Assembly (NCBI RefSeq): GCF_037996765.1
Contig: NZ_JBBNAD010000005.1
Location: forward strand, 466,001 to 530,000
Reading direction: 5' to 3'
Length of the DNA stretch: 64,000 nucleotides
From: Bdellovibrio sp. GT3
Lineage (GTDB): Bacteria > Bdellovibrionota > Bdellovibrionia > Bdellovibrionales > Bdellovibrionaceae
Under the pieces are notes generated by a model. That model had not been told where the DNA came from, searched no databases, and saw nothing but the letters and a program-made list of their open reading frames with translations. Below, piece after piece: positions 3,741 to 11,069 of this stretch; positions within the stretch are counted from its first letter, which is position 1, and each line of letters begins with the position of its first letter. The translations under genes and the position numbers were made by a program.

Positions 3741-4787
3741 TTATTTAGAAAGATTTTTAAGGGCTTCTTCAGCGCTAATCACTCTGTTGAAAACAGATTT
3801 TACATCATCTGCCTTCAAAAAGCCGTTTTCGATCATCCACTTGTCATTAAACGCTTTGCTCAAGTACTGGCGGCCGCTATCAGGGAAAATCACCACGATA
3901 TTTTGTGGTTTCTCAATTTTCTCTGCGTATTTCATAGCAGCGACCAACGCTGTTCCGCTGGATGGTCCAACCAAAAGACCTTCTTCAGCAACCAATCTGC
4001 GAGTCATTTCGAAAGCTTCTGGGTCACCGACACGAACAAATCCGTCATAGATGTCCAAGTGAACGTTGCCTGGAAGCATATCTTCGCCAATACCCTCAAC
4101 TTTATAAGAACCTGGAGGGTCCACGATCTTTTTATGATAATAAAGATCATAAAGGATCGAACCAATTGGGTCTGCGCAGATGATCTTAACATCAGACTTC
4201 TTTTCTTTTAGGAACTTGGCACAGCCTGAAAGAGTACCGCCAGTTCCAGCGCCCCCCACCAAAACATCCACTTTACCATCCGTTTGATTCCAGATTTCTG
4301 GACCTGTTGTCTGATAGTGGCGTGTTGGGTTGTCAGTGTTAAAGAACTGATTCGTCAAAAACGCTCCGGGAATACCATCGGCGATCTTTTTTGAAACAGT
4401 ATAGTGGCTTAGCTCATGCTCTGGCTCCACCATCGGAGTGATAACCACTTGGGCGCCATAAGCACGCAAAATAGCTCTTTTTTCCTCACTCATTTTCTCG
4501 GGCATCACAAATATACATTTGTATCCCTTAACAGCTGCCGCCAATGCCAAACCAACACCGGTGTTTCCAGATGTTGCTTCAACAATGGTGCCGCCCGGCT
4601 TCAAATCGCCGCGTTTTTCAGCTTCTTCGATCATCGCCACTGCAACGCGATCTTTGATGCTGCCACCAGGATTAAAGTACTCAACCTTTGCGAAATATTT
4701 ATGTTTTGAGTTCTTAGTTACGTTACGAAGTTCCACCAACGGGGTGTTCCCGATGGTTTCCAGGATCGATTTATAGATTTGTGACAT
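3741..4787 (-). CDS. Cystathionine beta-synthase-like PLP enzyme (no CBS domains)
   Basis: This 348-residue fold-type II PLP enzyme has the IGNTPLVEL start, PLP lysine K45 in NPGGSIKDR, the substrate loop TSGNTG, and the phosphate-binding GGAGTGGT loop. The EGIGEDMLPGN segment and the length beyond typical CysK resemble the catalytic core of cystathionine beta-synthase rather than plain O-acetylserine sulfhydrylase. The C-terminal regulatory CBS pair of animal enzymes is absent. Predicted reaction: serine plus homocysteine to cystathionine in the cytoplasm. It is followed after 11 bases by the gamma-lyase-like gene. A CysK/CysM-type activity is the alternative. Confidence 0.87.
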   Translation of the reverse strand: MSQIYKSILETIGNTPLVELRNVTKNSKHKYFAKVEYFNPGGSIKDRVAVAMIEEAEKRGDLKPGGTIVEATSGNTGVGLALAAAVKGYKCIFVMPEKMSEEKRAILRAYGAQVVITPMVEPEHELSHYTVSKKIADGIPGAFLTNQFFNTDNPTRHYQTTGPEIWNQTDGKVDVLVGGAGTGGTLSGCAKFLKEKKSDVKIICADPIGSILYDLYYHKKIVDPPGSYKVEGIGEDMLPGNVHLDIYDGFVRVGDPEAFEMTRRLVAEEGLLVGPSSGTALVAAMKYAEKIEKPQNIVVIFPDSGRQYLSKAFNDKWMIENGFLKADDVKSVFNRVISAEEALKNLSK

Positions 4788-4793
4788 GATTGA

Positions 4794-5009
4794 CTAGCTT
4801 TCTAAGTCTCTGCTTCTGTTGGAACGAAGTAAGACTGTGTTCATAGACTGCAAAACTGTATTCATTTGAGTCATCGGATCTCCGGAATATTCCATTCCAA
4901 GCTCTGAAGTCAGCTGTTTCACCAGATTTCTGTTTGGTTGATCTTTCATCAACTCTTCAACCAGCTTTTCAAGTGATACCGTCTTCTTTTTAGTTTCAAG
5001 CTCAGCCAT
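4794..5009 (-). CDS. Small conserved-looking protein of unknown function (71 aa)
   Basis: This 71-residue, charged, soluble protein is predicted mostly helical and has no signal peptide or cysteines. The ATG is preceded by a GGGGGAAA ribosome-binding site. It ends 6 bases before the beta-synthase gene and begins 26 bases after the T2SF gene, so it is probably translated from the same message. No family is recognised. A Met-rich stretch near its C-terminus (MTQMNTVLQSMNTVLL) looks like an amphipathic helix. Confidence 0.6.
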   Translation of the reverse strand: MAELETKKKTVSLEKLVEELMKDQPNRNLVKQLTSELGMEYSGDPMTQMNTVLQSMNTVLLRSNRSRDLES

Positions 5010-5035
5010 GGATTTCCCCCAACGGGGTCACTCTA

Positions 5036-5473
5036 TCACCCCCCTCCCAAAGAGTGAAAAAAATTTTGCAGCAGCGGACCAAAAAGCAGCAGCAGAAAGG
5101 CTGGAAACTGGAATAATAGAAGGGGGATCAGCAATAAAAAAGGAAGTCTCGCGAGCTTTGTACGAATATCATCCTCACAAGCCTCCAACATCTCCTCTTC
5201 CAGGCTGACAATGACATTATATATGGCCTCGCCACGCATTCCGCGCTCCAAAAGCTGCAAAAGCACCTGCCGATGGGGAGATAAGGACTGATTAATGAGG
5301 CCATGCGTGACCTTTCCTTGCTGCAACAGCGCCAACCAGCGACCCACAAGAGATGGAAAATCGCCCTGATGCCGTTTTAAATAGTTCATCACGCCAACTT
5401 TCGTGGGCTGACCTTTCTCAAGTGCCCGTTTCACGCATAACAAAAGAGCCAACGGGGGTGCTACACCTTCCAT
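5036..5473 (-). CDS. Short TadC/T2SF-like membrane protein
   Basis: This 145-residue protein has a hydrophilic helical body and a strongly hydrophobic Leu/Phe-rich C-terminal segment (about residues 113-138) long enough for one membrane span. Its start overlaps the end of the longer T2SF-like gene by 13 bases. In Tad (tight adherence) pilus systems two adjacent T2SF-domain proteins, TadB and TadC, form the inner-membrane platform, which fits this pair. The protein is much shorter than usual TadC (about 300 residues), so the assignment rests on position and on the Gly-Lys-x-x..L..al pattern of half a T2SF domain. No ATPase, secretin or pilin gene is adjacent. Confidence 0.6.
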   Translation of the reverse strand: MEGVAPPLALLLCVKRALEKGQPTKVGVMNYLKRHQGDFPSLVGRWLALLQQGKVTHGLINQSLSPHRQVLLQLLERGMRGEAIYNVIVSLEEEMLEACEDDIRTKLARLPFLLLIPLLLFQFPAFLLLLFGPLLQNFFHSLGGG

Positions 5474-6346: not shown

Positions 6347-6466
6347 ATGGCAAAGAAAGCAGCAAAAAAAGCTACTAAAAAAGCAGCAAAGAAAACTACT
6401 AAAAAAGTAGCAAAAAAAGCTACAAAAAAAGTAGCTAAAAAAGCTACTAAAAAAGCTTCTAAGTAG
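6347..6466 (+). CDS. 39-residue Lys/Ala/Thr-rich histone H1-like protein
   Basis: A short gene starts with ATG at 6347 behind a strong AGGAGGAG site and ends with TAG at 6464-6466. The product consists almost entirely of repeats of AKKA / TKKA / VAKK, with roughly half its residues lysine, and no acidic or aromatic residues. Such composition matches the C-terminal tails of eukaryotic histone H1 and bacterial H1-like DNA-binding proteins, so nucleoid binding is the likely role (inference). It has its own terminator, so it is a single-gene unit. Its repeat style is also seen in the tail of ribosomal protein L21 encoded at 36893-37453. Confidence 0.8.
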   Translation: MAKKAAKKATKKAAKKTTKKVAKKATKKVAKKATKKASK

Positions 6467-6496
6467 TTAGACGCTGTACTAATTTAGTACACTGAA

Positions 6497-6612: not shown

Positions 6613-7266
6613 TTAGAAGTAGTACAAAGCTCCGATCGTTCCTGAAGGAAGCAATTGTGAGCGCTTCACTTCATACATCGCAACCACTTCCGCAAACACA
6701 GAAACGCCGGCCAAATCTCCGGACAATTGATTGTACTGAAGGCCGAAAGATCCGTTCAAAAAGTCAGTTCCAAACTGCCCGGAACGTTTCTCATCGTCGG
6801 TTAAAACACGGTCTAAAATCCCCGATTCCATCCAAGAAGTGGAATTTCCCATCGAATTATACCAACGAGAATAACCTGCAGTGTAATAAGGTGCGATATA
6901 ATCGCCCTCAAAGGCATGTTTCCATGAAAACTGGATGGAATTATATCCGGGACCTGTTCCGAATCCGGCTACAACACTGTTTTCTTCCTCAAAATTAAAC
7001 TCGCCAGTGATTCCAACCAGCCCCAATTGACCACCCACAGACATTCCCAGTCCGACTTTACGACTTTGGCGCATGCTTAGAGTTGAAGAGTAGGTCATCC
7101 CCAGGCGCTCGGCCCGCATGGAGTCGCTATAATCCTGCTCGATACTCAGTGCTTTGGATGAAACAGATGAAGAATCAGACCACAGATCTGTCGTGGAAAT
7201 CTCGGCAAAGGAAATACTTGAAGTCAGCAAGGCAAGGATTGCGACGCCGGTGAAACGTTGGAACAT
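6613..7266 (-). CDS. Exported outer-membrane-type beta protein, last gene of the MCE operon
   Basis: This 217-residue protein has a signal peptide (MFQRFTGVAILALL.., cleavage likely after SFA). The mature part has alternating polar and aromatic beta segments and ends in ALYYF; a terminal Phe is the usual C-terminal signal of outer-membrane barrels. No named family is recognised. The ATG follows an ideal AAGGAGG. The gene begins 24 bases after the MlaD-like gene, so it is probably co-transcribed with the lipid transporter. Inference: it may be the outer-membrane end of that system, or an envelope protein sharing its regulation. Confidence 0.7.
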   Translation of the reverse strand: MFQRFTGVAILALLTSSISFAEISTTDLWSDSSSVSSKALSIEQDYSDSMRAERLGMTYSSTLSMRQSRKVGLGMSVGGQLGLVGITGEFNFEEENSVVAGFGTGPGYNSIQFSWKHAFEGDYIAPYYTAGYSRWYNSMGNSTSWMESGILDRVLTDDEKRSGQFGTDFLNGSFGLQYNQLSGDLAGVSVFAEVVAMYEVKRSQLLPSGTIGALYYF

Positions 7267-7290: not shown

Positions 7291-8067
7291 CTAAAAGATT
7301 CGGGCTCTGACGCCTTCTTTTTGCAAGAACTGTTTAATAGCCGGGCCATCAAGCGGTTCCAAACGGAAAAGAAGCTTATGAACCAGGTCATAAGTGTCTT
7401 CAGCCTTTTTAGATCGAAGATTGGACGTAAGATAAGCTAAGTCATCGCTAATTTTAATAGAATTATCAAGCAGCCGTGAAATTTCAGGGTTTTTAGTGGT
7501 TTTATCCAGCAATACCAGCGTTCGATTGAAGTTTGTAACCAACAAATCCATCTGCTTGATTACGCTGGTGACAGATCCTTCGTTCTTTTCCAAAATTTCG
7601 ATCATTTTTCCCGCTAAACCGTAGCCTTGAGATAAAAGTTGATCAATTCGCGGAGGATCTTCACCACGAACATACTCACCCGACGCAAATTCCCCGGAAG
7701 TTGCCGACCCTGGAGAGATTTCCAGAAACTTTTCCCCAATGACACCCGCAAGATTGATGAAAAATTTGGAATCTTTACGGACACTCGTCCAGGCCTTCTT
7801 ATCGATGGTGATGGTTAAACGCAGTTTTACTTCTTCCCCGTCAGCCATTTTATGTTCTGGATCAAAAGCAATGGACTTCACTTTGCCCACTTTAATACCC
7901 ATAACTCGAACTGGAGATCCCTCTTCAATTCCACCTGCAAAATTGAACATCACATTTAGTTCTTTAGTATTTGAAAACGGGGTTATGAAACCCATGGCAT
8001 AAGCAAATGCTGCCACCATGATTAAACTAACCAGAGCTAACAAACCGACCTTGGTTTCCACTTTCAT
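7291..8067 (-). CDS. mlaD: MlaD-like MCE-domain substrate-binding protein
   Basis: This 258-residue protein has an uncleaved N-terminal membrane segment (about residues 7-28) followed by one MCE domain (about 38-118) with the typical GGIEEGSPVRVMGIKVGKV core and the VIGEKFLEI strand. After it comes a helical region that could form part of a channel. MCE proteins form hexameric rings on the inner membrane and carry phospholipids between membranes. The gene sits directly after the two permease genes (18-base gap). At 258 residues it is longer than E. coli MlaD (about 180), because of the C-terminal helical extension. Confidence 0.92.
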   Translation of the reverse strand: MKVETKVGLLALVSLIMVAAFAYAMGFITPFSNTKELNVMFNFAGGIEEGSPVRVMGIKVGKVKSIAFDPEHKMADGEEVKLRLTITIDKKAWTSVRKDSKFFINLAGVIGEKFLEISPGSATSGEFASGEYVRGEDPPRIDQLLSQGYGLAGKMIEILEKNEGSVTSVIKQMDLLVTNFNRTLVLLDKTTKNPEISRLLDNSIKISDDLAYLTSNLRSKKAEDTYDLVHKLLFRLEPLDGPAIKQFLQKEGVRARIF

Positions 8068-8085: not shown

Positions 8086-8778
8086 TCAATAAAGATAACT
8101 AAAAGTATAAGATAAAATAAAATCGATAACAATAATTGCGATCGAAGCCACGACCACAGTATTTGTGGTCGCTTTGCCAACACCCTCCGCGCCCTGTTGG
8201 CAACGGAAACCGAAATAGCAGGCCACCAAAGGAATCACTCCACCGAAGCAGGCACCTTTTATCACCGCAAAATACACATCTTTAAACTGCACAAATCGGT
8301 GCATCGAACTGATAAACATCCCGGGCGTATAGCCCAAATACGTCTGACTGATCAGCATAGCTGCGAACAAACAGGTCATATTTGATATTAAAGTAAGAAT
8401 AATTCCACCCACTACGCAGGCAAAGAATCTTGGAATAACCAGGTAATTAATCGGATCAATTCCCAGCATTTTCAAAGCATCGACCTGTTCGGTGATCTGC
8501 ATGGTTCCGACTTCAGAGGCATAACCAGCCCCCACACGGGAACACAATAGTAATGCGGTCACAATCGCTGCAAGTTCGCGCAAAATCAATACAGCAGCAA
8601 ATCCCGGCACCATCGCATCGTTTTGAATGACCAGTTTCATGTGAAATGATGACTCAAGAATGGTTACAATTGCCGCAAAGCAAACGCAAAACACGATAAT
8701 AAAAAGGCTGCGATTTGCGACGAAATGAAGTTGCTGAAAAAACTCTTTGTAACGGAAAGGTCCATATAAAGCGATCAT
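8086..8778 (-). CDS. MlaE-family permease (second copy)
   Basis: The 230-residue product is an MlaE/YrbE integral-membrane permease with about five hydrophobic segments. It has the family core ILRELAAIVTALLLCSRVGAGYASEVGTM and TEQVDALKMLGIDPINYLV. The start chosen is ATG at 8778, whose ATGA overlaps the stop of the preceding permease gene, indicating translational coupling. A longer frame upstream lies inside that neighbouring gene and is not real. It differs clearly from the first permease, so the transporter probably has a heterodimeric membrane core rather than the MlaE homodimer of E. coli. Confidence 0.92.
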   Translation of the reverse strand: MIALYGPFRYKEFFQQLHFVANRSLFIIVFCVCFAAIVTILESSFHMKLVIQNDAMVPGFAAVLILRELAAIVTALLLCSRVGAGYASEVGTMQITEQVDALKMLGIDPINYLVIPRFFACVVGGIILTLISNMTCLFAAMLISQTYLGYTPGMFISSMHRFVQFKDVYFAVIKGACFGGVIPLVACYFGFRCQQGAEGVGKATTNTVVVASIAIIVIDFILSYTFSYLY

Positions 8779-9557
8779 GATCTGTAACCTCTGATTGCTT
8801 GGATAAGCACTTCGCCAAGGAAACTGGTAAACCAATCCATCACCACAATGCAAATCATCGTGGTAACCGCAGTTGCAACCACCGCTCGCCCCACACCTTT
8901 TGCCCCACCTGTCGTGGTGTATCCCTTGTAAGTGCAAATTGTTGCCAGAACGACTGCAAAAACCAGACTTTTAATCAGTCCGCTTAAAATTGAAATCGGA
9001 TGAACAATTGTAGGGATGTGGCGAATGTATTCTTCTGCTGAAATTCCCGCAAAAGCCTGCGCCAGCGCCATGCCACCGAATACCGACATCATTAATCCCG
9101 CAGCCAATAGAAAAAAGCTGGATATGACGATTCCCAAAAATCTTGGAACGATGATCTCCTGAATAGGATCTGCTCCTAAACAGCGAACGGCGTCGATTTG
9201 CTCTGTGACTCTCATGGTGCCAAGCTCAGCTGATGTATATGCGCCGACTTTTCCGCTTAACATGAACGCGATTAACATCGGGCCTACTTCACGGAAAGTC
9301 GCACTGGTCGCGAGTCCACCCAAAAAGCCCAAGGCACCGAATTCGCGAATCGGCATTGCGAATTGCACGGCCATAATAGCGCCCACGAAGAACCCTGCCA
9401 TAGCAGTCGTCGGAAAGGACTCGATCGAAACTTTCCAAATCTGAACAAAGATCTCATGCACCTTCAGCTTTTTTACAAAGACTGTACTGACTATCGTCCT
9501 TAGAAAAATAAGTGTGCCGCCAATTTCATCCAGAATTCCCACCGCAAACGCCATCAT
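8775..9557 (-). CDS. mlaE: MlaE-family permease (first copy)
   Basis: This 260-residue multi-span membrane protein has the MlaE signature region ATFREVGPMLIAFMLSGKVG, AYTSAELGTMRVTEQIDAV and CLGADPIQEIIVPR. In E. coli MlaE is the inner-membrane permease of the phospholipid transporter MlaFEDB. The gene overlaps the upstream ATPase gene by 4 bases and the second permease gene by 4 bases, so it is tightly coupled to both. No STAS protein (MlaB) gene is seen in the operon. Confidence 0.93.
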   Translation of the reverse strand: MMAFAVGILDEIGGTLIFLRTIVSTVFVKKLKVHEIFVQIWKVSIESFPTTAMAGFFVGAIMAVQFAMPIREFGALGFLGGLATSATFREVGPMLIAFMLSGKVGAYTSAELGTMRVTEQIDAVRCLGADPIQEIIVPRFLGIVISSFFLLAAGLMMSVFGGMALAQAFAGISAEEYIRHIPTIVHPISILSGLIKSLVFAVVLATICTYKGYTTTGGAKGVGRAVVATAVTTMICIVVMDWFTSFLGEVLIQAIRGYRS

Positions 9558-10282
9558 GCCAGCACCTCGGCCAGAAAGTCCTTTACCAGGGGTACTTCCG
9601 ATTTTTTTAGTTCGTCCGGTGTGCCCATTTCAACGATTTGCCCCTTATCAAGCACGATGATTCGATCTGCAATTGTAAGAGCGCAATTCATGTCATGACT
9701 GACTACTATGGATGTTGTTTTAAGAGTTCTTGATAGATCCAGGATCAGTTTGTTCACTGCTGTCGTCGTAACGGGATCCAGACCTGTGGTGGGTTCGTCG
9801 AAAAGAAGGATTTTTGGATCCAAAGCCACCGTGCGCGCCAGACTGACTCGCTTTTGCATGCCGTAGGAGATCTGAGCTGGAAGCTTTTCATCGACTCCAT
9901 TCAAATGCACCAGGCGAAGGGCTTTCGTGACTTTTTCCCTGATTATTTCTTCGGAAAAATCATAATGCCGGCGCAGTCCGAAAGCCACGTTTTCAAAAAC
10001 AGTCAGTGAATCGAACAAAGCCGGATGTTGAAAAACCATGCCGCATTTTTTTCGAATCGGCAGGTATTGTTCCTCGGTAAACTTGGCCACTTCCTGACCG
10101 TCGATCCAGATTTCACCCTGATCCGGTGTTAACAGCCCCACAAGATTTTTCAATAAAACTGACTTGCCTGTTCCGGAGGTTCCCAGAATAAATACGATTT
10201 CGCCTTCGCGAATAGTCGCCGAGAGTCCGTTTAGGACTGTGCGATCTCCGAATCTTTTGACGATGTTTTTGAATTCTATCAC
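9554..10282 (-). CDS. mlaF: MCE transporter ABC ATPase 1 (complete catalytic Glu, altered signature)
   Basis: This 242-residue ABC ATPase has Walker A G34TSGTGKS, Q-loop FQHPALFD, Walker B LLFDEP with catalytic E163, D-loop TGLDP, and switch H196 in VSHDMN. The signature is ISYGMQKR, where the second position of the usual SGG is Tyr (S139-Y140-G141). It is MlaF-like, including the MQKR-type signature helix. The start is GTG at 10282. It is preceded by a second, different ATPase gene (22-base gap) and followed by a permease gene (4-base overlap). See the finding on asymmetric ATPase sites. Confidence 0.93.
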   Translation of the reverse strand: MIEFKNIVKRFGDRTVLNGLSATIREGEIVFILGTSGTGKSVLLKNLVGLLTPDQGEIWIDGQEVAKFTEEQYLPIRKKCGMVFQHPALFDSLTVFENVAFGLRRHYDFSEEIIREKVTKALRLVHLNGVDEKLPAQISYGMQKRVSLARTVALDPKILLFDEPTTGLDPVTTTAVNKLILDLSRTLKTTSIVVSHDMNCALTIADRIIVLDKGQIVEMGTPDELKKSEVPLVKDFLAEVLA

Positions 10283-10304
10283 TCTGAAATTTTAGAGTTG
10301 GATT

Positions 10305-11069
10305 CTATACGGGGTCAAGCGCCGTCAGAGGTCCCTCAAGAAGGCCGCGTACAAACTGGCGCACTCTTGGATCAGCATGATTTTCTGTTTCTTTCGGAGA
10401 TCCAGTGATAATCACTTCTTCATTTACAACCATCGCAATTCGGTCCGCCATTTGATAGGCGCGATTCATATCATTCGTCACCGCTACAATCGTCGAATTG
10501 TTTTGTTGTTGCAGAGTTTTGATCAGCGTGATGATTTTCTTTGAAGTGATTGGATCAAGTCCCGCTGTTGGATCGTCATAAAAAATTATCTGCGGGTCCA
10601 AAGCCAATGCCCGAGCGATTCCCAGACGCTTTTGCATGCCTCCACTGATTTCATCAGGATACAAATCACGTGCATGGGGGATGCCGACAGCATCCAAAAA
10701 ACTCTCAGCTTTCTTTGTTATTTCCCACTCCGAAAGACGAGTCGTCTCCCTTAACGGAAAACATATGTTTTCAATGCAAGTCAGAGAATCGAACAGGGCG
10801 TTCTTTTGAAACAGGATTCCCATTTTTTTAAGAAGCGGAAGTTTATCTTTGCTGCTTAGCGTTGACCATTGGTTTTGTTCAATGAAAACTTCGCCATTCT
10901 GAGGGGTTACGAGTCCCGACAAAGTCTTCAGTAGAGTTGTTTTACCCTGGCCACTTGGTCCAATTATGACAAATGCTTCGCCGGACTTGATATCCAAATT
11001 TACGGAGCGCAACACAACCTGTGAGTCAAAAGTCACAGATACGTTTTGCAAACGCAATACACTCCCCAT
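10305..11069 (-). CDS. MCE transporter ABC ATPase 2 (degenerate catalytic residues)
   Basis: This 254-residue ABC ATPase has Walker A G37PSGQGKT, Q-loop FQKNALFD, and a normal ISGGM signature (141-145). The Walker B block reads IIFYDDP, so the catalytic Glu is Asp (D166), and the switch histidine is replaced by Asn (N199 in VTNDMN). These are the changes seen in the degenerate half of asymmetric ABC heterodimers. The ATG follows AGGGAAA. It is the first gene of the six-gene minus-strand operon, and its upstream region (11070-11190) is shared with the divergent sucC. It may pair with ATPase 1, or have a separate role. Confidence 0.9.
   Translation of the reverse strand: MGSVLRLQNVSVTFDSQVVLRSVNLDIKSGEAFVIIGPSGQGKTTLLKTLSGLVTPQNGEVFIEQNQWSTLSSKDKLPLLKKMGILFQKNALFDSLTCIENICFPLRETTRLSEWEITKKAESFLDAVGIPHARDLYPDEISGGMQKRLGIARALALDPQIIFYDDPTAGLDPITSKKIITLIKTLQQQNNSTIVAVTNDMNRAYQMADRIAMVVNEEVIITGSPKETENHADPRVRQFVRGLLEGPLTALDPV

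Follow-up and report, generated by a model that had tools for sequence, protein, structure and literature searches.

A five-gene MCE operon in the window (the whole 64,000-nt stretch of Bdellovibrio sp. GT3 DNA analysed here) encodes two MlaF-like ATPases, A1 and A2, whose catalytic motifs are altered in a complementary manner. This residue pattern lies far beyond chance and recurs across the Bdellovibrionota, a phylum known for predatory bacteria. Judging from the sequences, A1 and A2 very probably pair as an obligate heterodimer in which one ATP site is catalytic and the other degenerate, mounted on a core of two different permeases, MlaE1 and MlaE2. The original prediction had proposed just such an asymmetric ATPase pair, with one normal and one doubly altered site, and is supported by 101 of 101 operon pairs spread over the phylum and by the restriction of the pattern to the two-ATPase architecture.

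The genes are arranged in the order A2-A1-MlaE1-MlaE2-MlaD, all on the minus strand, and the same operon was found again throughout the Bdellovibrionota. A2 (10305..11069, 254 aa) comes first, followed by A1 (9554..10282, 242 aa, GTG start), MlaE1 (8775..9557), MlaE2 (8086..8778) and an MlaD-like protein with one MCE domain (7291..8067; PF02470, 1.5e-19). Both permeases matched PF02405, MlaE1 with 202 bits (1.5e-59) and MlaE2 with 211 bits (2e-62). The predicted presence of two different MlaE permeases at 8086-9557 thus stood, as did its end points; what changed was the start of MlaE2, which is probably the ATG at 8778 and not the TTG at 8937. This ATG overlaps the MlaE1 stop (ATGA), and the MlaE1 start overlaps the A1 stop, so that both the A1/MlaE1 and the MlaE1/MlaE2 junctions show four-base overlaps as in translationally coupled genes. 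The idea that the first interfacial helix is missing from MlaE2 was dropped, because its relatives carry an N-terminal extension. No MlaB-like gene was seen among the operon genes scanned. Directly after MlaD, positions 6613-7266 encode a 217-aa protein with a signal-peptide-like start and no Pfam or NCBIfam match, and just downstream of the operon, at 6400-6480 on the minus strand, repeated Ala-Lys-Lys-Thr/Val codons resemble a histone H1-type tail.

The six catalytic motifs, all on the minus strand, were exactly as originally claimed. A2 has a normal signature (ISGGM, residues 141-145, 10635..10649). Its Walker B motif IFYDDP (D165, D166; 10569..10586) carries D166 in place of the catalytic Glu, and its switch loop VTND (starting at V197; 10470..10481) carries N199 in place of His. 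A1 has a normal Walker B motif, LLFDEP (D162; 9791..9808), with the catalytic Glu E163, and a normal switch loop, VSHD (starting at V194; 9692..9703), with His196; its signature ISYGM (residues 138-142, 9857..9871) is altered, with Y140 replacing Gly. Of the two ATPases, A2 but not A1 retains the beginning of an MlaF-type C-terminal tail (xGPL). A composite ATP site is built from the Walker A/B motifs and His of one ATPase and the signature of the other (PMC7756269), and the A1 signature and A2 Glu/His changes therefore hit the same site. In human degenerate sites, an altered signature is universal and Glu to Asp ranks second in frequency, often together with H-loop changes (PMC7756269). The A1/A2 pair follows this known recipe, which suggests a heterodimer that hydrolyzes ATP at one site and holds it at the other.

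A phylum-wide survey detected A2 relatives in 126 of 369 genomes at E 1e-60, a count that includes lone A2 copies, and the named scan contributed 80 further loci. In G010, a genome of the same genus as the window, the A1 match has the coordinates seen in the chromosome of Bdellovibrio bacteriovorus strain kdesi, which places that strain in this genus. Gene order and motifs were read locus by locus and counted after duplicate removal; many of the relatives' loci stem from metagenome assemblies. The A1 signature was altered in all 112 non-redundant proteins (SYG 101, SFG 9, SHG 1, GFS 1), every one of which had both Glu and His. Operon A2 proteins showed the reverse: the signature was SGG in 113/113, never altered, and at least one of Glu and His was missing in 113/113, compared with 0/112 for A1. 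The A2 switch His was replaced in 111 of the 113 proteins (Asn 104, Ser 6, Thr 1), and the catalytic Glu was exchanged for Asp in 90. The two A2 proteins that keep His (L115/L157 and L183) both have Asp for Glu, and the 23 that keep Glu belong to a deep, Bacteriovoracaceae/Oligoflexia-like clade. The most degenerate A1/A2 pair seen (L189:3306-4744) combines LGFSL in A1 with LSGGM, LLLDEP and VTSD in A2.

When a head-to-tail heterodimer is assumed, then across the 101 non-redundant operon pairs composite site 1 (A1 Walker B Glu, A1 switch His, A2 SGG) was intact without exception, and in composite site 2 (A1 signature, A2 Glu, A2 His) all three elements were altered in 76 pairs and two in 25. 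Conservation across 101 operons rules out chance or sequencing error. The Walker A Lys was kept in A1 and A2 of every pair, in motifs ending GKS or GKT. These intact Walker A motifs, the Glu retained in the deep A2 clade and the slow hydrolysis that Asp in place of Glu can permit (PMC7756269) would also fit a heterodimer in which hydrolysis is usefully fast at both sites and the substitutions are tolerated drift in a functionally near-symmetric motor. We regard this as unlikely, since the altered catalytic elements, up to three per pair, always fall in the same composite site and never in the other (101/101), and parsimony gives a minimum of five E/D changes within A2 (and nine switch-His changes) against zero Glu losses in any A1. 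The loss of site 2 may still be partial, because the deep A2 clade (23/113) keeps the catalytic Glu.

A2 could alternatively be a regulatory pseudo-ATPase and not the second half of the motor, with an A1:A1 dimer driving the transporter, as the loss of Glu or His from A2 in every operon might suggest. The signatures make this very improbable: that of A2, its share of the A1 catalytic site, is invariant (113/113), and A1's own is altered in 112/112 proteins.

The same substitutions in relatives with a single ATPase would have argued against a complementary pair, and the conventional single-ATPase MCE systems, taken from the same genomes and from Acidobacteria, were canonical in 15 of 15 cases. 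We therefore rejected degeneracy as a general trait of MCE ATPases in this phylum. The genome from which the window was taken encodes five MlaE permeases, two in the operon and three in single-permease loci; two of the latter (L059 and L061) have a canonical ATPase (SGGM, DE, SHD or THD). The third, L060 (G000:C4, outside the window; 3904-5438), has the order MlaE-ATPase-MlaD, and its ATPase carries VPGRL in place of a normal signature, the Walker B motif LLDDPS without the Glu, a D-loop GLGQ without Asp and a switch ISSY without His. L060 relatives are present in 49 of 66 family genomes. All 40 examined had DD in Walker B and none had the switch His, nearly all having Ser; several had Arg in place of the Walker A Lys. 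L060 thus has the look of a conserved MCE system built around a pseudo-ATPase. Signature changes never coincided with Walker B or His changes in any one of 258 non-redundant ATPases; the known exception is L060, whose ATPase is too divergent for reliable alignment and was judged by eye. Its degeneracy extends to almost every motif, the signature included, and is therefore not complementary, and we rejected L060 as a counterexample.

A second type of single ATPase is a stand-alone A2 paralogue (L039, L048, L050 and 15 other loci), which has a DDP Walker B motif and retains His in 12 of 18 cases. The few kb read around it contained no permease, and the three loci covered in full encode a divergent neighbour, a 170-190 aa protein of unassigned family. 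Lone A2 copies with Asp occur in G001, G257 and G092, genomes where no A1 was found, so Asp alone does not require A1. Given the missing permease and its placement inside the A2 clade, the lone A2 is probably a derived copy and not a single-ATPase MCE system; we set it aside on this basis as evidence against the pattern, of which it stays a limit. These solitary A2-like proteins would be compatible with two separate homodimers, A1:A1 and A2:A2, serving different complexes or states. Each such homodimer would, however, carry two defective sites, and A1 and A2 occur in fixed order, A2 upstream of A1 on the same strand, in 101/101 pairs and are missing together. Moreover, His is found in 12/18 lone A2 but in 2/113 operon A2 proteins, as if Asn were tolerated only beside A1, a contrast that counts once and not twelve times since the lone forms are one clade. 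Separate homodimers are thus highly unlikely.

The joint occurrence of two ATPases and two permeases provided further support for a heterodimer. Searches for A1, operon-type A2 and MlaE2 came up empty in 14 genomes of genus g17 and in G041, G001 and G257; G001 is only 81% complete, and part of the g17 set is incomplete as well. All of these genomes retain one to three other MlaE permeases. Among the genomes surveyed, the complementary pattern is limited to the two-ATPase, two-permease architecture. One species has a natural fusion of A1 with MlaE1 (L152:3971-5710 and L080:3709-5448, one contig in two collections): a single open frame of 580 codons, uninterrupted by a stop, in which ~75 residues serve as linker. 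This fusion ties A1 to MlaE1 and supports the heterodimer indirectly. We also looked for a natural A1-A2 fusion and found none.

Trait columns were masked before a tree was built from 129 ATPases. It resolved A1 as a single clade and A2 as another (SH-aLRT 99 for both); Acinetobacter MlaF, the Acidobacteria sequences and the canonical single-permease systems branched outside the two. The permeases likewise formed separate clades for MlaE1 (100) and MlaE2 (99). L060 appeared as one very long row among the A1 rows, and its position is not reliable. The lone A2 copies group together (99) within the A2 clade, a placement that depends on inner branches with support in the 80s. Since A1 forms one clade, a single origin of its altered signature is most likely. 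The exchange of Glu for Asp in A2 probably followed the A1 signature and A2 His changes and happened more than once, because Glu sits in early-branching A2 lineages. On balance, we favor a scenario in which an MCE lipid transporter with one catalytic site originated a single time, at the base of the Bdellovibrionota or earlier, and degenerated stepwise, the A1 signature and A2 His changing first and the A2 Glu giving way to Asp later and repeatedly.

In the proposed mechanism, A2, A1, MlaE1, MlaE2 and MlaD would together make up a single ABC transporter of the MCE type in the inner membrane, its heteromeric core being A1:A2 on MlaE1:MlaE2 beneath an MlaD ring. A1 and A2 would dimerize head to tail. 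Site 1, formed by the Walker A/B motifs and His of A1 with the SGG signature of A2, would be canonical and hydrolyze ATP. Site 2, formed by the A2 Walker A/B motifs (Asp or Glu at the catalytic position, Asn usually replacing the His) and the S-Tyr-G of A1, should bind ATP because the Walker A Lys is kept, with slow or no hydrolysis, and may act as a hinge that holds both ATPases together during cycling of site 1. We infer the physical heterodimer, the relative activities of its sites, the MlaD stoichiometry and the permease partner of A2 from sequence; the substrate, by analogy with the family, is presumably lipid.

If this reading is right, an asymmetric-motor design arose independently in the MCE lipid-transport family, as part of a Bdellovibrionota envelope system absent from E. 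coli. The Glu-keeping A2, the Asp-bearing A2 and the lone A2 with His would then constitute a natural series for probing the role of a degenerate site in a lipid transporter. Our search of the open-access literature found no account of an asymmetric MCE ATPase pair, and nothing on Bdellovibrio together with MlaE and MCE; one published behind a subscription might have escaped it.

The best solved-structure matches were MlaF for the ATPases (7d06/6z5u/7ch8, with 7d06_B and 6z5u_K as the closest chains for A1 and for A2) and MlaE for the permeases (7ch8/6xbd). Both ATPases scored below the cut-off of the MlaF equivalog NF008809 (441 bits; A1 206, A2 192) and are thus relatives of MlaF, not MlaF itself. 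With MlaFEDB of E. coli, Acinetobacter and Pseudomonas, a type VIII ABC transporter, the operon shares MlaE-family permeases, an MlaF-like ATPase and an MlaD MCE protein. MlaF is a homodimer with an LSGGM signature, the catalytic Glu170 and a handshake tail, and associates with MlaB (PMC7367683). Whereas MlaFEDB has one gene each for a homodimeric ATPase and permease, the present operon has a pair of genes for each, all four representing old clades of their own; no MlaB gene was seen among its genes scanned, and A1 lacks the MlaF-like tail start.

Mycobacterial Mce1 couples a homodimer of the ATPase MceG to a heterodimeric permease and six different MCE proteins (PMC9882608). It therefore resembles the present system in its heterodimeric MlaE-type permease (YrbE1A/YrbE1B) and differs in its single, homodimeric ATPase and its six MCE proteins. 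All solved MCE transporters found here (with MlaF of three genera or MceG) run on identical ATPase pairs. ABC transporters with degenerate sites (the scheme of TM287/288, CFTR and TAP) comprise exporters and a channel; they use other permeases and lack an MCE protein, and their likeness to the A1/A2 pair, which lies in sequence only, carries no information on the direction of transport. With these transporters, the A1/A2 pair shares the same split of substitutions between its two ATPases and the retention of one canonical site (PMC7756269).
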